51,869 nt of DNA from Candidatus Sabulitectum sp. (GTDB lineage Bacteria; Fermentibacterota; Fermentibacteria; Fermentibacterales; JCC-6), in NCBI GenBank assembly GCA_023139045.1, contig JAGLOJ010000006.1, positions 1 through 51,869 on the forward strand, given 5' to 3'. The position numbers and the translations under genes are program-made. The notes beneath the pieces are model-generated. The model was not told where the DNA came from. It made no database searches and saw only the letters and a program-made list of their open reading frames with translations. This document shows, in pieces, positions 41,496 to 51,612 of this stretch (positions are counted from its first letter, which is position 1; the number at the start of each line of letters is the position of its first letter).

Positions 41496-43214
41496 CTATC
41501 TGATAACTGTAACTGCTTTACTCTGCATTTCCTGTTCATTCCGGAGAACAACTCTATATACACCTTCCGGTAATTTTTCTCCAACAGTCCAGAAGATGCC
41601 AGCGGACCCTGCCGGAACAGCTTCAGTGTGTACTGTTCTTCCACAGATATCAATTATCGAGATGACACCACCTTCGGAACCTGTGCTGATCCATGTGCCG
41701 GAGGATACTGGATTACTCATCAGGTCGAAGGCTGAAGCGGTAATTCCGATATGCTCCTCTTCAACACTCACACTGGAGTTCCACTGAGTATTACCGCTGA
41801 ACCATATCTCATGTGCAGGTGAGAGAGCTGCCGGCTGTCCGTGTCCGGTGGCTGAAAGATCGCTGTCGATCATTGTCCAGACAAAGTCATAACCGGGAGA
41901 ATACATGGCAGTTTTCTTGGTGGCCTCTGAAGGGAAGAGATCATCGTGGTCCAGGTGATAAAAGGTGGTTGCATTGCCCCAGCCTCCCCCGGCGACCATC
42001 CTTTCAGCCTGACGGATGTTGTAGTCAGTGGCTGGATAAGTATTTGCCTGCCAGGCAACATAAAGCATATCTGTGTTGTCAACTGCTATGGAAGGGAACT
42101 CGTTTTCCGCCATTGCTTCATCCACTATTTCAAAGGATCCCCAGTTTCCGGAATTTCTTCCACTGTAGTAGATGTTCTGAAGAATAGTTGAGTACATTCC
42201 CACCTCGGGTCCGGGGAAGCTGTTGGCATTCAGCGGATCAACACCGGGAGTGTAGGGTCCGGGATCAGTGGGATCATGAGGAATAACTCCATGCATCCAG
42301 GCAACATGAGGAATATCTTCTCTGCTTACAGTAAGAGATGGATAACCGTCGCTGTACATACTGCCTGAGGAGTGAGAGACATTCTCGTAGAGATCCCATG
42401 AGTTTCCGGCATCCGGGCTGCTTTTATACATGATGCAGGGACCTGATGTAGGGCCGTCATCACTCCATACAACATGAACCCTTTCAGAGTAGTAGGTGTA
42501 GTTGGATGGTGCTTCCTGGAAATCAATGACTGTAGCGACATCCGGTGTCTGAGAGTTGAATTCAGTCATGCTCAGGTTCTGGAAAGGCGTCCAGTTCATT
42601 CCATGATCAATGCTGTTGGAATAGAGAATATCGGATGTGAGACCCGAATTGAAATTCTCTTCCTGCCAGACTACATGAACAACATTGTTCAGAGAGCAGT
42701 CAACATCAGGAACAAGTGAGTGTTCTGCACTGACATGAACAGTGAACGGTGGTGTCCAGGTTCCCGGTGCGGGCATAGTACTGTTAATATTGGAGGAGTG
42801 CATGATCTGATATACTCCCGACATATCTTCTCTCTGCCATACAACATGCAGCATATCGTTGTCTGTTGGATTCCCGGGTGAGCCGTGCTCAATGGCAATG
42901 GAAGGATACCTGTCATCCAGTGACGTATCGAAGGTAATCTCTGTTGCTGGTGCCCAGTCTGCACTGCTGGTTGGCGGTGCAGGCAGCAGTGTGTGCGAGT
43001 ACATAATGTCACAGTTACCGCCCGGCGTACCGTTCGGGTTCGTCTGGGAGTGATAAACCATGTGGAAGTAACCACGGGAGTCTCTCACCATTCTTCTTCC
43101 GTTATTGAAACCTGTGGCTTCCCATTCACTGGAAAGATCATTGTCTACCTGATGATCGGCCATTGCCGGTGCTACCATCAGGAAAAGAGCTGCGAGAATT
43201 ATCATTGCTTTCAT
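41496..43214 (-). CDS. secreted Asp-box (BNR/sialidase-like) protein with type IX-like C-terminal sorting domain
   Basis: A 572-residue exported protein. A signal peptide (MKAMIILAALFLMVAPAMA) precedes a six-bladed-propeller-like body. Two exact Asp-box motifs S-x-D-x-G-x-x-W (SIDHGMNW, SPDAGNSW) and repeated 'HVVWQ/HVAWMH' strands are visible. The sialidase arginine triad is not evident, so it may bind glycans rather than cut them. The last 75 residues form a FlgD-Ig/Por-type sorting domain (GTWISTGSEGGVISIIDICG, then EGVYRVVLRN and KAVTVIR). The ATG at 43214 has AAAGGA at correct spacing. A sigma54 promoter stands 57-71 bases upstream, and the gene is divergent from the large sigma54 activator. 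Confidence 0.82.
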   Translation of the reverse strand: MKAMIILAALFLMVAPAMADHQVDNDLSSEWEATGFNNGRRMVRDSRGYFHMVYHSQTNPNGTPGGNCDIMYSHTLLPAPPTSSADWAPATEITFDTSLDDRYPSIAIEHGSPGNPTDNDMLHVVWQREDMSGVYQIMHSSNINSTMPAPGTWTPPFTVHVSAEHSLVPDVDCSLNNVVHVVWQEENFNSGLTSDILYSNSIDHGMNWTPFQNLSMTEFNSQTPDVATVIDFQEAPSNYTYYSERVHVVWSDDGPTSGPCIMYKSSPDAGNSWDLYENVSHSSGSMYSDGYPSLTVSREDIPHVAWMHGVIPHDPTDPGPYTPGVDPLNANSFPGPEVGMYSTILQNIYYSGRNSGNWGSFEIVDEAMAENEFPSIAVDNTDMLYVAWQANTYPATDYNIRQAERMVAGGGWGNATTFYHLDHDDLFPSEATKKTAMYSPGYDFVWTMIDSDLSATGHGQPAALSPAHEIWFSGNTQWNSSVSVEEEHIGITASAFDLMSNPVSSGTWISTGSEGGVISIIDICGRTVHTEAVPAGSAGIFWTVGEKLPEGVYRVVLRNEQEMQSKAVTVIR

Positions 43215-43270
43215 TTTCATTTCCTTTCGCTGGTTTTGTTTTTGGGGCTCCCTGCCCGACACTACCTGCA

Positions 43271-43285
43271 GCATGATCAGTGCCA
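43271..43285 (-). promoter_or_regulatory. sigma54 (-24/-12) promoter of the secreted Asp-box protein
   Basis: On the minus strand TGGCAC and TGC place GG (43284-43283) and GC (43272-43271) exactly 10 bases apart, as in the ORP promoter (both read TGGCACT, then ATGC). Transcription would begin near 43260, with a 46-base leader. Confidence 0.7.
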
Positions 43286-43359
43286 GAAGCATAAAATGTT
43301 GTAATGTAATAAAATAGAAGGAATAACCTGAAATTGGATAAGATGTTCGACTGAAAAAA

Positions 43360-43377
43360 CAGGGGAATATTCCCCTG
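43360..43377. promoter_or_regulatory. 18-bp perfect palindrome, candidate enhancer site
   Basis: CAGGGGAAT followed by its exact inverse. The centre is about 85 bp upstream of the -24 element of the divergent sigma54 promoter, a usual enhancer position. It lies about 150 bp before the start of the large activator gene. Confidence 0.6.
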
Positions 43378-43379
43378 GT

Positions 43380-43412
43380 GGGGATAATTTCTTTCATATC
43401 CCCTTGTTTTTT
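43380..43412 (+). promoter_or_regulatory. second dyad (GGGGATA-N10-TATCCCC) with following T run
   Basis: Perfect 7-bp arms at 43380-43386 and 43397-43403, then TTGTTTTTT. It may be another activator site, since GGGGATA recurs at 43494-43500 in the activator's leader, or a terminator-like attenuator read on the plus strand. Confidence 0.5.
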
Positions 43413-43524
43413 CCAGTTCTTGTTTCGTTTTGTAGAAAAAAGTCTGATTTCTGAATGAATCCTACTACTTCGCTATAGACATTGATTAGTTTTGGGGATA
43501 TTTTCCCTACCACAGGAGGTGGCT

Positions 43525-46500
43525 ATGGCTGGAACCAGCAGTATCATTTCAAGAAAGCACATATCCTCGGGGAGAATGGAAATCCTTTTCAAGGATAACA
43601 GCGACAGGCTCAGGCTTGGCAGGATATTCTCCTCCGGTGAGGAAACCGGTGTGGTCAAGAAGATGCTCCGAATGATTTCGGCAATTAAAGTCGATTCCAT
43701 TTTGGTGCCGGACAGGTGTGACACCGACATTGAAGAGGGGAAATTCTGTTTTTCAATGCCCTGGGACCCATTATGGGACTCCTCCGGTATCTGGAAGACT
43801 GAGGAATTGATCGCGCCTTTAAGGGCTCTTCATGAGGAAGGGTGGCTTCATCTTGATATCACTCCTGCTTCATACAGGAATGTCAATGGTAAGCTGAAAC
43901 TTCTCGTCTGGGGTGATGCTCTGATTGCAGGACTTGCCTGCGTTCCCCCCGAGCTGTCTGCGGGAGCGGCACCAACTCCCTTTTCTGATTACTACATGCT
44001 GGGAAGGGCTATGATGGCCAGCAGAGGATACCTCTGGGACGGTTCGAATCCTTCCACAGTGGAAGCCCTTGTGGCAGAGCAGATATCACACAGGGCAAAA
44101 GCTCTCAGGAAAGCGGGCCTGCCTGGTACAACTCTGCAATCCGGAAACTTCAAATGCAACAAGGTCAATATTCTCGCCGGCGGCAAGTGGCAGGAAAGAG
44201 ATCTAATTACCGGAAACTGGGTAACAAAGGCCGGATCAGACGGGTGGCTGGTAAGTGTCGTCAGATGCAACCCCATCGAAACGATGCGACCGCTTCCCGG
44301 CAGGGAAGCTCCCGTCGAGAAAATCAACTCCGGTGCGGCACTGGTAAACAATCTGTTTCCGTCAATGAGCGGTGTTGAAAGACTTCTTGTGATTGATCAG
44401 ATTGAATTTGCCTCCCCTGATCTTTTTGAGATCATCAGGGAATTTACCAATCTTCTGCCTCCTGGCCTGACTGTAATTGTTACCGCTGCGGAACTGCCGG
44501 ATCGACTTAAGGAATGTGATCTGTCAGTTGTTAATCTTGCGGGAGAGGTGTCCGTTGCCTGGGATATTCCATTACCCCTTCTTCCGTCAAAAGCGCTGGG
44601 CTCCGGTTATCCTTCATTCGGATTTCAGGGTGCAATGTACAGGTGCACTGCCGCAGGTGACCCCCCTGAGCCCTCTCAGATAAATCCTGAGACACTTTTC
44701 GCCGAAGGCGGGTATAGAGCTCTGGTTGCGGCAGCGTCAATTGATCAATCGGGGTTAGATACCGGGCTGATAGCCAAAGCCCATTTTGAACTGGGAAATT
44801 TTGATGAGGCTCTCCATTTCACCCCGGACAGCGACATCCTGCTTCGAGCGAGAATACTGCTTGCCATGGGTCGACCCGGGGAAGTTACTGAACTGCTTGC
44901 AGAAAAACAATCGAATGAGGAGAAGGTTCTTAAAGCTTCGGCTCTGATAGATCTGATGGATCTTGAGATGGCAGTTGACCTTCTAAAAGATGTTCCCGGA
45001 GCAGAATCTGCCCTTCTTCTGGCAAAAGCTCTTGACCTGCAGGGCAGAGTTGCCGAGGCTCTTCCTGAAATTGAGAAGGCTCTCGCTTTTGCAGGCGAAC
45101 CCAGCAGGGTAAAGCTTCTCTGCTCAAAAGCTGTCATCTTCATGCGGATCGGAGACTACCGACATGCTCTGGATGCGGCCGAGTGCTCTGTAATTACTGC
45201 CAAGAAACTTGCAGATGCTGCTCTTCTCGGTAAAAGCCTGACAGAGCGTGGTAGAGTGCGGGAGGTTATGGGGAACTGGAGTGGCGCAGTGGATGATTAC
45301 CGTCTTGCACTGCTCTACTATGCTGAAAATCCTGGGAAAACGGATCGTCCACCACTTATTGATCTCTTTGTTCTTGAACTGAGAACAGGAGAGCTTAAAT
45401 CTGCCGTGAGCACTTTCAAATCACTTGGTATTCGTCTTGAACAAAGCGGAAGCGGGATTCCGGCAGATCAGATGACGGAAATGCTCGCTGCCTACAGGGG
45501 TGTTCTTCTGGGTCTGGGTGCTATGCGGATTCCTTCTGCAAGACGCTCTGCTTCAATGGCTGCAGGGAAAAACCTGACTCTCGTCCATGCGCTTAGTCTT
45601 CTGTATCTCGGTCAGCTTCTTTTGCAGGAAGGTAAAAACGAGGAGGGTCTTGAAGCTCTCAAGTATGCCAGGGCGAAGGCGGGTTTCATGGGGGACAGGC
45701 ACCTTGCCCTGCTGGCAGATCTGGCCATGACCCGGGTTGGGGCAGAAATAGACACATCAAGACTGCTCTGGGAAGCGAGGGAACTGGGTTTGAGACCGGA
45801 GGAACTTGAAGCCGAGATCATCTCCTCTGATGACCCTGCTGTAAGAGACAGAGCCTTCCTGGACATCCTGAATATGCCCGCCCCGTTATTAGCCTGTGAA
45901 CTTGCATCCAGTTTCGGCTTGCCTGAAGAACCCGGCATCAGAAGAAGGATACTTGAGTCATTCAAGGACATTTCAGAGCTTCTTAATGATGTGGAGAGAA
46001 AACAGTTTGCCAGACTTAACAGCAGACTGGTCAGAATCCTGGAGAACTTATCAGGCTTTTCTGACATGTCTGTTCTCAGTAATTCGATTAAAAAAATATC
46101 CCAGTGGTATGGAAAAGCCACTGTGGGCCTCAAAGATTTGAATTCACTGGGAGAGGAACTGGGACTGCTTTACCTTGGCCCGGCCCCAAGTGGAAAAAGT
46201 GACGAGTTGCAGATATCAAGTTTGCCCGACCTTTTCGCAATCGGTCCGGATCTTTCCTCGGTGAAATTGCTGGCTCCACTCATTGCTGCTATTTCCGGTG
46301 CAAGTCCCATACTGGCAGTTGACGAACACATTCGAGGTTATAATCTTTTCCCAGAGATAATTGGTCAATCAGACATTGTTATGAAGTTGAAGTCAATCAT
46401 GAAACGGGTTGCACAAATGCCTGTTCCGGTGTTAATAACAGGAGATACAGGTACAGGAAAAGAACTGGTTGCAAGGGGATTGCATGATGAAGGTCCAAGA

Positions 46501-47244
46501 GCAAAGGGTCCCTTCATCGCAGTTGATTGTGGAGCAATTGCCGAGACATTGCTTGAATCAGAATTGTTTGGGGTAACACGGGGAGCTTTTACCGGTGCTT
46601 CGGAGAGCAGAATCGGTCTTATGGAGGCTGCAAATGGCGGTACATTATTTCTTGACGAGATAGGAAATATGTCTGCAGGGCTTCAGGTCAAGCTTCTTAG
46701 AGTCCTTGAAACAGGAAAACTCAGAAGACTTGGTGATACGTCTGAAAGAGAAACATCCTTCCGCTTGATAACTGCAACGAATGCTGATCTGCGCCAGAAC
46801 TCCGCGTCAGGCAAATTCAGGACAGATCTCTACTACAGAATTGCTGTTATAGATATCAAAGTGCCACCTCTTCGGGAAAGAATGGATGACATAGCGCTAC
46901 TGGTTGAGCATTTCACATCGGAGCTTCGCGGTGAGATTCAATTTTCCAGGGATGCCATAAATGCAATGATCAAGTACAACTGGCCCGGTAACATCAGAGA
47001 ACTGCGGAATGTTGTTCAGAGAACAGTCCTGATGTGTCAGGGCAAAATAGTCAGAGCAGATGATGTATCCATAGGAGAAGGGTTTCATAAAGATTCCACA
47101 TTCAGAATGGAGCCCCTTGAAATTGCAATTGTACGACACGTTTCCAGTGTTGTTGACTGTTGTGACGGCAACAGATTGAAAGCCTCAAGAATTCTTCAGT
47201 GCGATCCGAAAACAGTTAGAAAATATCTTGCCCTTAAAAAGTAA
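43525..47244 (+). CDS. giant sigma54 activator: pseudokinase, NTPase-like region, TPRs, AAA+ (GAFTGA), Fis-type HTH
   Basis: A 1239-residue protein. Residues about 10-200 follow a Ser/Thr kinase fold but lack key residues: HLDI stands for HRD, the metal-binding DFG is not evident (VWGDAL), and PPEL stands for APE. Residues about 205-400 resemble a STAND NTPase with a Walker-B-like RLLVIDQIEFASP but no P-loop. TPR-like helices fill about 415-760 and a poorly defined GAF-like part about 800-930. Then comes a complete sigma54 AAA+ domain (GDTGTGKE near 974, ESELFGVTRGAFTGAS, TLFLDEIG, WPGNIRELRN) and a C-terminal HTH. It should activate sigma54 promoters on a signal sensed by the N-terminal modules. 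The ATG at 43525 has AGGAGGTGG. It is divergent from a gene with a sigma54 promoter. Confidence 0.88.
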   Translation: MAGTSSIISRKHISSGRMEILFKDNSDRLRLGRIFSSGEETGVVKKMLRMISAIKVDSILVPDRCDTDIEEGKFCFSMPWDPLWDSSGIWKTEELIAPLRALHEEGWLHLDITPASYRNVNGKLKLLVWGDALIAGLACVPPELSAGAAPTPFSDYYMLGRAMMASRGYLWDGSNPSTVEALVAEQISHRAKALRKAGLPGTTLQSGNFKCNKVNILAGGKWQERDLITGNWVTKAGSDGWLVSVVRCNPIETMRPLPGREAPVEKINSGAALVNNLFPSMSGVERLLVIDQIEFASPDLFEIIREFTNLLPPGLTVIVTAAELPDRLKECDLSVVNLAGEVSVAWDIPLPLLPSKALGSGYPSFGFQGAMYRCTAAGDPPEPSQINPETLFAEGGYRALVAAASIDQSGLDTGLIAKAHFELGNFDEALHFTPDSDILLRARILLAMGRPGEVTELLAEKQSNEEKVLKASALIDLMDLEMAVDLLKDVPGAESALLLAKALDLQGRVAEALPEIEKALAFAGEPSRVKLLCSKAVIFMRIGDYRHALDAAECSVITAKKLADAALLGKSLTERGRVREVMGNWSGAVDDYRLALLYYAENPGKTDRPPLIDLFVLELRTGELKSAVSTFKSLGIRLEQSGSGIPADQMTEMLAAYRGVLLGLGAMRIPSARRSASMAAGKNLTLVHALSLLYLGQLLLQEGKNEEGLEALKYARAKAGFMGDRHLALLADLAMTRVGAEIDTSRLLWEARELGLRPEELEAEIISSDDPAVRDRAFLDILNMPAPLLACELASSFGLPEEPGIRRRILESFKDISELLNDVERKQFARLNSRLVRILENLSGFSDMSVLSNSIKKISQWYGKATVGLKDLNSLGEELGLLYLGPAPSGKSDELQISSLPDLFAIGPDLSSVKLLAPLIAAISGASPILAVDEHIRGYNLFPEIIGQSDIVMKLKSIMKRVAQMPVPVLITGDTGTGKELVARGLHDEGPRAKGPFIAVDCGAIAETLLESELFGVTRGAFTGASESRIGLMEAANGGTLFLDEIGNMSAGLQVKLLRVLETGKLRRLGDTSERETSFRLITATNADLRQNSASGKFRTDLYYRIAVIDIKVPPLRERMDDIALLVEHFTSELRGEIQFSRDAINAMIKYNWPGNIRELRNVVQRTVLMCQGKIVRADDVSIGEGFHKDSTFRMEPLEIAIVRHVSSVVDCCDGNRLKASRILQCDPKTVRKYLALKK

Positions 47245-47580: not shown

Positions 47581-50500
47581 ATGTACCGTTTGATTCCGTC
47601 CTTTATCTGCGAGCAATTCGAAAAGAAGCAATTCAAGGGTGAATTTCCGGCAACCACCATGTTCATCGATATTGCCGGATTTACAGCAATGACACAGACG
47701 TTGATGGATAATGGTAAAGAGGGCGCAGAGGTGCTGGCTGATGTTATCAACGCCGTGTTCAAACCTGCAATCGATGCAATCTTTGAATACAATGGATTTG
47801 TTTCTTCTTTTGCAGGTGATGCTTTTGCAGCAATTTTCCCCTCTGATTCGGTTAGCGTACCTCAAGCTCTTTCAGCAGCTGTTCGCCTTCGGGGGTTGTT
47901 TCTGGAGACGGGAGAACAGCAGACCAAGTTCGGTTTATTTAACTTATCTGTGAGAATCGGACTGTCCAATGGTCTCGTCTCGTGGGGAATCATCTCTCAA
48001 TACTTGCAGAACAGCTACCATTTCGGTGGCGAGGCAATCATGCATTCCGCTGAAAGTGAGCAGAATGCCGCAAGTGGTGAAGTTGTTGTGGATGACAGAA
48101 TATTATCTCAAATACAGGACATGCATGGAGTAATCTGTAAATACAAAAACGACCGCTTCCATACACTGTTGTCTGCTCAGGCAACAGCTGATGCTTCTTC
48201 AAAAACAGGTGTTTCTGAAACATTCTTTTCCTTGCAAAGCATGTTTGTTCCAGAGGATGTTCTTTCTTTGACCGGCAGGGGAGAGTTCCGGGATATTGTT
48301 TCCTGCTTTATATCCTTTGATGTGAAGAGTGATCTTGAAAGGGGAACTGCCAGGGTAATTACACTGGCACACAGCTTCGGAGGATATTTCAACAAGATTG
48401 ACATCAGCGGCAGGAAGGGGGCAATGCTTGTGCTGTTCGGAGCACCAGTCAATCCCGGAAATCTGTACAACCGTGCTCTGAACTTTGCTCTTGCTGTAAG
48501 AGAGATTCCAGAGCTTACGGTACGCATCGGGTTGACCTACGGCACAGCATTCACCGGATTTATCGGCAGTGAGCTTTGCAGTGAATACACAGCGCTTGGA
48601 TCCGTTGTGAATCTGTCGGCACGATTTACTGAGAAGAAAAAGCAAGCTGTTATTTACCTTGACAATGCGATTTACAAACAAACCCATTCTCAGTATGAGA
48701 TTCGTGAGCTGAAACCGGGAAAATTCAAGGGATTCGCCGGGAGGGTCCCCGTTTACCGTTTGATGGGGAAGAAAAAGGTTGTTCAATCTTCATTCTCTGA
48801 AGGAAGTATGGTTGGCCGTGATTCGGAGCTTGACCGGCTGACTGAGTTAATCCGGCCGCTCAACGAAGGTGAATTTGGTGGCATAGTTTATGTGTATGGT
48901 AACCCCGGCATCGGCAAGTCACGGTTGGTTCATGAACTGATTCAGCAGCAGGGGATCAGAACAGTTACTATGCAGACCGACAGCATTCTCAAAAAACCGC
49001 TGAATCCAATTACATATTTCTTTAATAATTACTTTGAGAGTGGCCATGGTTGTTCACTGGATGACAGAAGAGACTTGTTTAAAAAAGCATACCGGAAACT
49101 GATCAGGCGAATTGAGAGAATACCCGGTGAGGATCTCACTTCTGCGGAACGATTAAGAATCTCAATGGATCTGGATCGGGTGGAATCAATCATCGGTGCT
49201 CTTGTCGGACTGTTCTGGAATGGATCGATATATGACGTTATCGATCCTCAGGATCGGGCCATTGTAACAGAGCAGGCAATCAAGGAATTTTTCAAGGCAT
49301 TGAGCCTTGCTGAACCAATCATTCTGCTCATCGAGGATATCCAGTGGCTGGATAGTGCATCCCAGAATGTATTTAAGATACTGACCCGCAGGATTGAGAA
49401 CTATCCTTTGATTATTCTTGCCTGCAGCCGGTTCAATGATGATGGCTCAAGACCGGTGTTAAAGGTGGATGATGATGTGCTGTGTTATTCAATAACTCTG
49501 GAGGAACTGCCCGCCACGATCACAGGAAAATTGATTGAAGAGCGTCTGGGCGAGAAGGTTGATGGTGAACTGGCAGATTACATACAGACCCGTACAGAGG
49601 GCAACCCGTTCTATACCGAACAGTTCTGCCTGTACCTGCAGGAGAATTACATCATCAGGGTTCTTGAAGGACAATACCATCTTGTGAAGGAGCCTGCCGA
49701 AATTCCCACCGACATCAACATGATTCTGATTGCACGAATTGATCGATTGTCAGCAGAGTTGAAGGAGACTGTACAGATCGCATCTGTGCTGGGCCGCGAG
49801 TTTAAGGTTCAGGTACTTACTACGCTGATTGAACTGATGCAGGCTGCTGCTGATAGCGATAACGGAATTTTGCGCGGGTTAATACACACGGATGTTGCCC
49901 CTTTGATTACCGAATTGGAAAACGAGCGGATCTGGTCTGCACTTTCAGAGATCAGATACATTTTCAACCATGCCCTGCTCAGAGATGCGGTTTACGATAT
50001 GCAACTGAGAACTCGGCTCCGGGCTCTTCACAAGCTTGCGGGTGACGCAATTGTTAAGCTCAATCCCGACAGTGAAACGACATTTGCTGATTGTGCTTTT
50101 CATTATGAGCAGGCGGAGAACTGGGAGAGTGCACTGGAGTATTGCACAAGAGCCGGCGAGTATTTTAAGGTATCGGTCAGATACGATGAGGCCCTGATCT
50201 ATTGTCAGAAAGCCCTGTCAATCCGCCTGACCACCCTGGGAGAAAAACACCCGGATACTGCAGCTTCCTATAACAGCATCGGATGGGTTTATCATGAAAA
50301 AGCTGAGTATGACACAGCTCTTTCATATCACGAAAAAGCCCTTGCTATCAGAGAATGTTTACTGGGTAAGAAACATTCTGATACGGCAGAATCATACAAT
50401 CACATCGGAGAGGCTTATCTGAGAAAAGGCGAATACGATACTGCTCTGGCATACCATGTTAAAGCCCTTGATATCCGTAAAGAACTTTTTGGTGAAAAAA

Positions 50501-51612
50501 ATATCTTTACTGCAACTTCATACAGCAACATCGGAGAGGTTCACTGGAAGAAGGGCAACTTTGATAAAGCGTTGAAGTATCACGATATGGCCCTTGCTAT
50601 CAGAGAGGAACTGCTGGGTGAAAGGCATCCTTCCACTGCAACATCATACAACAACATTGGACTGGTTTATTCGGATAAAGGCGATTATGACACGGCTTTG
50701 GTATTCTATGAAAAAGCCCTTGCCATACAGAAAGAGCTGTTGGGAGAAAAACATCCCGATACTGCGGCATCTTACAGCAACATAGGGGTAATTCATTGGA
50801 GGAAGCGTGATTATGACACAGCCCTGTACCTTCTTGAAAGGGCTCTCTGCATACAGAAAGAATTGCTGGGCGAAAAACATTGGTGTACCGCGACTTCATA
50901 CAATAACATCGGATCGGTGCATTATGAAAGAAAAGACTATGACACTGCTCTGGTATTCTATGACAAAGCCCTTGCGATACAAAAAGAACTGCTGGGTGAG
51001 AAGCATTGGTATACCGCCATTTCATACGGCAACATAGGATCAGTTCATTACGGGAAAAGTGATTACAGCACGGCTTTGGCATTCTATGAGAAAGCTCTTG
51101 CGGTACAGAAAGAACAGCTGGGTGAGAAACATCCAGAAACAGCAATCTCATATTATTGTATTGGAATGGTCTATCGGGATAAAGGTGACAATGAGATGGC
51201 TTTGGGATACCTTTTGAAGGCCCTTTCTATTCAGAGAGAATTGCTGGGAGAGAAGCATCCTTATACAACTAACACACTGAATAACATCGGAGTTACCCGT
51301 TTTAACCAGGGAGATTATGGTGGTGCTCTGACAGTATTTGAAGAGGTTCTTGCCATCAGGAAAGGATCCCTGGAAAAAAAAGACCCTTCTACGGCGATGT
51401 CGTTGAGAGACATCTCATCAGTATACGTTGCTCAGGAGAAATACGAAGACGCAAAGCAGCTTCTCAAGCAGGCCTTGTCTATTTTAATAGACTCACTGGG
51501 AGAAGACCATTCACACACAATCAAGTGCCGGAAGAGCCTGGCTGAACTGTATGACAAGACAGGTAATAAGAGTGAAGCAAAGCGAATTCGCGAAGAGATG
51601 AATCAGCTTTAG
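47581..51612 (+). CDS. soluble adenylyl cyclase-like protein: two class III cyclase domains, AAA_16/STAND NTPase, TPR array
   Basis: A 1343-residue cytosolic protein with the order of mammalian soluble adenylyl cyclase. C1 (about 20-200) has the metal aspartates D30 in FIDIAGFT and D80 in FAGDAF. C2 (about 235-395) lacks them but has K279 in GRKGAMLVLFGAP and the transition-state pair N344/R348 in VVNLSAR. Together the halves complete one active site. The C1 residue matching the adenine-selecting lysine of the mammalian enzyme is S76, so the nucleotide used is uncertain. The NTPase has Walker A GNPGIGKS (K446) and Walker B LLIEDIQWLD (about 582-591). About ten 42-residue kinesin-light-chain-type TPRs fill about 880-1343. 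The ATG at 47581 follows GGGAG; the family starts at this MYRLIPSF. Confidence 0.9.
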   Translation: MYRLIPSFICEQFEKKQFKGEFPATTMFIDIAGFTAMTQTLMDNGKEGAEVLADVINAVFKPAIDAIFEYNGFVSSFAGDAFAAIFPSDSVSVPQALSAAVRLRGLFLETGEQQTKFGLFNLSVRIGLSNGLVSWGIISQYLQNSYHFGGEAIMHSAESEQNAASGEVVVDDRILSQIQDMHGVICKYKNDRFHTLLSAQATADASSKTGVSETFFSLQSMFVPEDVLSLTGRGEFRDIVSCFISFDVKSDLERGTARVITLAHSFGGYFNKIDISGRKGAMLVLFGAPVNPGNLYNRALNFALAVREIPELTVRIGLTYGTAFTGFIGSELCSEYTALGSVVNLSARFTEKKKQAVIYLDNAIYKQTHSQYEIRELKPGKFKGFAGRVPVYRLMGKKKVVQSSFSEGSMVGRDSELDRLTELIRPLNEGEFGGIVYVYGNPGIGKSRLVHELIQQQGIRTVTMQTDSILKKPLNPITYFFNNYFESGHGCSLDDRRDLFKKAYRKLIRRIERIPGEDLTSAERLRISMDLDRVESIIGALVGLFWNGSIYDVIDPQDRAIVTEQAIKEFFKALSLAEPIILLIEDIQWLDSASQNVFKILTRRIENYPLIILACSRFNDDGSRPVLKVDDDVLCYSITLEELPATITGKLIEERLGEKVDGELADYIQTRTEGNPFYTEQFCLYLQENYIIRVLEGQYHLVKEPAEIPTDINMILIARIDRLSAELKETVQIASVLGREFKVQVLTTLIELMQAAADSDNGILRGLIHTDVAPLITELENERIWSALSEIRYIFNHALLRDAVYDMQLRTRLRALHKLAGDAIVKLNPDSETTFADCAFHYEQAENWESALEYCTRAGEYFKVSVRYDEALIYCQKALSIRLTTLGEKHPDTAASYNSIGWVYHEKAEYDTALSYHEKALAIRECLLGKKHSDTAESYNHIGEAYLRKGEYDTALAYHVKALDIRKELFGEKNIFTATSYSNIGEVHWKKGNFDKALKYHDMALAIREELLGERHPSTATSYNNIGLVYSDKGDYDTALVFYEKALAIQKELLGEKHPDTAASYSNIGVIHWRKRDYDTALYLLERALCIQKELLGEKHWCTATSYNNIGSVHYERKDYDTALVFYDKALAIQKELLGEKHWYTAISYGNIGSVHYGKSDYSTALAFYEKALAVQKEQLGEKHPETAISYYCIGMVYRDKGDNEMALGYLLKALSIQRELLGEKHPYTTNTLNNIGVTRFNQGDYGGALTVFEEVLAIRKGSLEKKDPSTAMSLRDISSVYVAQEKYEDAKQLLKQALSILIDSLGEDHSHTIKCRKSLAELYDKTGNKSEAKRIREEMNQL
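50176..51540 (+). repeat. 126-bp tandem repeats encoding the TPR array
   Basis: Units of 42 codons recur in phase, each with a GEKHPxTAxSYxNIG segment and an ALAIQKELL segment. I count ten full units and a partial one. Units 4 to 7 are most alike at base level, so expansion or loss by recombination is plausible. Confidence 0.85.

Follow-up and report, generated by a model that had tools for sequence, protein, structure and literature searches.

Does a bacterial protein with two cyclase domains in one chain build a single active site from the pair, as human soluble adenylyl cyclase (sAC, ADCY10) does, and if so, which nucleotide would it use and would bicarbonate control it? The question is raised by a gene for a sAC-like nucleotidyl cyclase (47581..51612, + strand, 1343 aa) in a window of 51,869 nucleotides, the whole stretch of DNA analysed here, whose source phylum is Candidatus Fermentibacterota. 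We place the start at ATG 47581, where the aligned orthologues also begin; the frame of the gene itself opens further upstream, at TTG 47509. Pfam finds class III cyclase homology in two stretches, an AAA_16 domain and a long TPR_12/TPR_10 array, in the order C1 cyclase, C2 cyclase, P-loop NTPase, TPR array:

47650..48114 (+): C1 cyclase homology domain, residues 24-178; Pfam PF00211 above cut-off, human sAC C1 at 46 bits
48262..48774 (+): C2 cyclase homology domain, about residues 228-398; second PF00211 stretch, human sAC C2 at 40 bits
48811..49416 (+): AAA_16 P-loop NTPase, residues 411-612; Pfam PF13191, E 4e-19
50242..51609 (+): TPR array (TPR_12/TPR_10), in-register units of 42 residues each that run from about residue 888 to the C-terminus; units are listed from residue 930, and the unit 888-929 was read off the translation

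The two cyclase stretches are homologous to each other (97.5%, E 5e-12, hhalign profile alignment), and the NTPase motifs are intact, with Walker A GNPGIGKSR at residue 440 and Walker B IILLIEDIQWLD at residue 580. Judged from sequence alone, transmembrane segments are absent. PMC6660944 defines a sAC by a pair of class III cyclase domains on a single chain, the lack of transmembrane segments in that chain and a P-loop NTPase, and all of these features are found in the 1343-residue protein. The first-pass annotation, which had described the domain order as that of sAC, is borne out by Pfam and by the human protein, whose C1 matched C1 and whose C2 matched C2. All three gene regions show a dN/dS of about 0.11-0.15 against two orthologues. 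In a single contig scan, named relatives at 61-76% identity were found at four loci (n=4) in Fermentibacteraceae, Sabulitectum and Aegiribacteria genomes; no relatives were found when viral contigs were scanned.

The roles of individual residues were taken from work on sAC (PMC12867704 Table 1 and PMC12250328). Conservation was counted over 52 homologues, all from Fermentibacterota, and 421 positions were ranked. The positions that bear on catalysis and base recognition are as follows:

47668..47670 (+): D30, metal aspartate 1 (sAC D47); invariant, 52/52 homologues
47818..47820 (+): D80, metal aspartate 2 (sAC D99); invariant, 52/52
47953..47955 (+): R125, at sAC K144 (pyrophosphate contact); R or K in 47/52
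48394..48396 (+): K272, adenine lysine (sAC K334); Lys in all of the 11 closest family members, the window protein among them; overall Lys in 15/52 and Gly in 30/52
48415..48417 (+): K279, variable loop residue; K, D, E or G among close orthologues
48589..48591 (+): T337, adenine threonine (sAC T405); T in 49/52, S in 3/52
48610..48612 (+): N344 (sAC N412); invariant, 52/52
48622..48624 (+): R348 (sAC R416); R in 50/52 (96%), Q in 2/52

D30, D80, N344 and R348, and likewise S76 (discussed below), stand in the translation exactly where they had been claimed to be. Among the 52 homologues, D30, D80, T337, N344 and R348 rank from 4th to 20th of the 421 positions, and their mirror positions in the opposite half vary, ranking between 225th and 401st. 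Both the profile alignment of C1 with C2 and a multiple alignment with single-domain cyclases place Ser and Gly in C2 at the metal positions, where C1 has its two Asp residues, and place Met and Glu in C1 at the positions where C2 has Asn and Arg. The metal pair is confined to C1 and the Asn/Arg pair to C2, as in sAC, and the adenine Lys/Thr pair is found in C2 as K272/T337. It had been stated beforehand that a metal Asp in C2 or an Asn/Arg pair in C1 would speak against this division; the domain-to-domain alignment contains neither.

Single-domain class III cyclases such as Arthrospira CyaC, or the C142 cyclase of the same genome, belong to the same domain family and use the same residues, but they carry the whole catalytic set in one domain. 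They act as homodimers. Seven of the eight single-domain cyclases of the phylum whose residues were compared have D, D, K, R, T, N and R all within one domain, and the exception (S104) deviates at two positions. An AlphaFold2 model of C1-C2, made from an alignment of only 5 sequences, reached a mean pLDDT of 46; Foldseek matches to this low-confidence model were sAC, but at a TM of about 0.35 and an rmsd of 20.

The similarity to human sAC extends to descent. The best PDB matches of the protein are human sAC structures, aligned C1 to C1 and C2 to C2 in order (phmmer, E 1.3e-20), and they outrank cyanobacterial CyaC. Human C1, at 46 bits against the C1 of the window protein, gives 3 bits against its C2, and human C2 gives 11 bits against C1 versus 40 bits against C2. 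A domain tree was built from 23 C1, 23 C2 and 30 single domains. In this tree, which has several long branches, includes human sAC as two PDB-match stretches only and is read here for its clades and not for finer placement within them, the C1s of human sAC, Leptospira, Ensifer and Fermentibacterota form one clade (support 100/98) and their C2s form a separate one (99/97). Both clades remain when the catalytic columns are removed (C1 99.1/99, C2 94.3/96). The C1/C2 division of labour looks to be common to the window protein and sAC by descent. The simplest reading is that it has a single origin, older than the divergence of these bacterial and eukaryotic proteins. Alternatively, gene transfer could have spread it. 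Human sAC and the window protein are alike in C1-C2 order, split catalytic residues, an adenine Lys/Thr pair in C2 and domain-by-domain shared descent; they differ in that K95 and R176, the bicarbonate residues, are absent from the window protein, whose C-terminal part is a regular 42-residue TPR array, known as such from its own sequence. The single composite active site proposed in the first-pass annotation is well supported, as a prediction, by alignment, conservation and trees.

Other parts of that annotation have to be revised. It had chosen K279 as the functional C2 lysine and assigned it to phosphate binding; the residue that aligns with sAC K334 is K272, and K279 is replaced by E, D or G in some close orthologues. 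Moreover, K334 of sAC C2 recognizes the base, and the residue that deals with pyrophosphate is K144 of C1 (PMC12867704 Table 1), the position occupied here by R125. The base is read by a C2 pair, K334 and T405 (PMC12867704, PMC12250328). Among cyclases, Lys plus Asp/Thr sets the choice of ATP, and Glu plus Cys/Ser the choice of GTP (PMC7384201), so K272 with T337 is the ATP pattern. Position 272 is Gly in 30 of the 52 homologues, including both paralogues in the same genome, L046 (G000 C185) and L059 (G000 C136), with Thr 337 and Asn 344 retained. These Gly-272 paralogues, rather than the window protein, are candidates for altered base recognition.

S76 had been taken as a replacement of an adenine-contact lysine in C1. 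It aligns instead with sAC K95, a residue of the bicarbonate site (PMC12867704), and the second residue of that site is replaced as well:

47806..47808 (+): S76, at sAC K95 (bicarbonate site); never Lys in homologues
48049..48051 (+): A157, at sAC R176 (bicarbonate switch); a column without Arg in the per-sequence table

Residue 76 is mostly Ser, Gly, Gln or Thr across the homologues. Column 158 is Arg in nine paralogues, in which a one-residue shift could matter; the window protein has A157-E158, so such a shift is irrelevant to it. The mammalian site, Lys95 plus Arg176, is therefore not found here, S76 and A157 standing in its place, and as judged from the alignment the effect of Ser at 76 is to remove half of it. 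Replacement of K95 or R176 has been tied to lost bicarbonate sensitivity in nonmammalian sACs (PMC12867704), and because of this link we predict that the window protein is insensitive to bicarbonate.

Taken as a whole, the explanation that we consider very probable is that the window protein belongs to the sAC lineage, as one of its bacterial members, and has one ATP-to-cAMP site built jointly by C1 and C2. The two domains would fold head to tail against each other to give one productive site, to which C1 would contribute the metal aspartates D30 and D80 and the phosphate-contacting basic residue R125, and C2 the adenine pair K272/T337 and the transition-state residues N344 and R348. ATP would be converted to cAMP at this composite site. 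A second, degenerate site would have neither bicarbonate residue of the mammalian enzyme (S76 stands for K95 and A157 for R176), and activity is probably not governed by bicarbonate as it is in mammals; the part that senses signals or switches the cyclase is likely to be the NTPase-TPR region. The enzyme is predicted to use ATP, to make cAMP and to do so without the mammalian bicarbonate switch. One observation against this explanation is that K272 is Gly in most paralogues, and the wider family may recognize the base independently of that residue.

The evidence bears unequally on other readings. The suggestion in the first-pass annotation of a changed nucleotide choice, derived from the Ser that replaces Lys in C1, has in its favor that S76 is genuinely present and that many paralogues have lost the lysine of C2, so that base recognition drifts in the family. 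Nevertheless, we regard it as extremely unlikely for the window protein: both base-reading residues of sAC, K334 and T405, are retained as K272 and T337, residue 76 is part of another, non-catalytic site, and neither of the residues usual in guanylyl cyclases at the two positions (Glu and Cys/Ser, PMC7384201) is seen. The idea fails because it took the lysine of C1 as the adenine contact, when the adenine pair lies in C2. Activation by bicarbonate as in mammalian sAC is also improbable. This regulation has been claimed to be conserved across sAC-like cyclases (PMC3085406), but K95 and R176 are kept neither in the window protein nor, at the aligned columns, in its homologues, and such replacements accompany lost sensitivity in nonmammalian sACs (PMC12867704).

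It is very unlikely that the two cyclase domains have lost catalysis and serve as a nucleotide-binding or structural module, even though there are bacterial precedents for inactive cyclase domains in fusions with signalling modules (PMC7159879). The full catalytic set is kept in 52 homologues under strong constraint, and conservation of D30, D80, N344 and R348 is not what one would expect of a dead module. The productive site might instead form between two chains, with C1 of one facing C2 of another, and the linker could permit either arrangement; we think this unlikely, as the C1 and C2 that pair in human sAC belong to the same chain, its crystallised catalytic chain contains both domains, and the protein described here has the same domain order and descent. 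The preferred reading, one composite site within one chain, also leaves room for a broader conjecture, which we consider doubtful: that a large bacterial sAC branch has abandoned the pocket that holds bicarbonate in mammals, or turned it over to a different ligand, that the NTPase-TPR region has taken over control, and that many Gly-272 paralogues are perhaps looser in nucleotide choice.

Bacterial sACs with the C1-C2-NTPase(-TPR) layout are already published, and the window protein adds another; sAC-like cyclases in bacteria are attributed to Roelofs and Van Haastert 2002 and to Kobayashi, Buck and Levin 2004 in PMC6660944, which cites them. An example is Leptospira borgpetersenii WP_002741124.1, encoded by a plasmid-borne gene annotated as a cyclase, which has this layout and the same split of D/D versus T/N/R but only about 26% identity to the window protein over C1-C2. 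An Ensifer frame has the same catalytic split. Unlike the window protein, neither the Leptospira nor the Ensifer protein has the adenine lysine. Our family counts cover one phylum and plasmid-borne relatives. The window protein is a well-supported bacterial sAC relative from an uncultured phylum, with the split site intact, the adenine pair kept and the bicarbonate switch missing. Work on nonmammalian sperm in 2026 (PMC12867704) has reopened the question of how old the bicarbonate control of sAC is, whether ancestral or acquired late, and the window protein is relevant to it.

Two further comparisons were made. The TIGR03903 TOMM kinase/cyclase fusion model matches the C2-NTPase region (residues 348-879), but at 145.7 bits versus a cut-off of 705.75, and there is no kinase among the Pfam matches of the window protein. 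Assignment as a Pycsar cyclase (PycC) was rejected, the similarity being only of the generic cyclase-domain kind (47.9 bits). Nor was a Pycsar effector identified: the upstream neighbor is a sigma-54 activator and the other upstream genes tested are unrelated in function, a check in which the downstream side was seen only in relatives, as the window ends 257 bases downstream of the gene. The two upstream neighbors are:

43492-47244 (+): sigma-54 activator, 1250 aa, AAA with lid
41496-43397 (-): 633-aa protein, no Pfam match

The same two genes precede the cyclase gene in two close relatives (L007 and L008); at L010 the gene directly follows RNase HII, and both neighbors are absent. By eye, the N-terminal part of the activator resembles a degenerate protein kinase (HLDITPASY) with TPR-like repeats after it, and Pfam gave no kinase match there.

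If cAMP is the product, possible targets are the four cNMP-binding domains that exceed the Pfam cut-off in the same genome (G000):

C190, 4769-5029: cNMP-binding domain
C137, 12512-12769: cNMP-binding domain
C151, 13918-14169: cNMP-binding domain
C62, 13574-13822: cNMP-binding domain

By eye, their carriers are apparently a MscS-like channel protein, two stand-alone proteins and a GGDEF-like protein; no CRP-type HTH receptor exceeds the cut-off in this genome. Class III cyclase domains occur in all 42 of the 42 Fermentibacterota genomes searched, with up to 17 matches each (loci L093-L122), and many of the matches lie in frames some 1000-1100 aa long. This makes for an unusually large cyclase repertoire.
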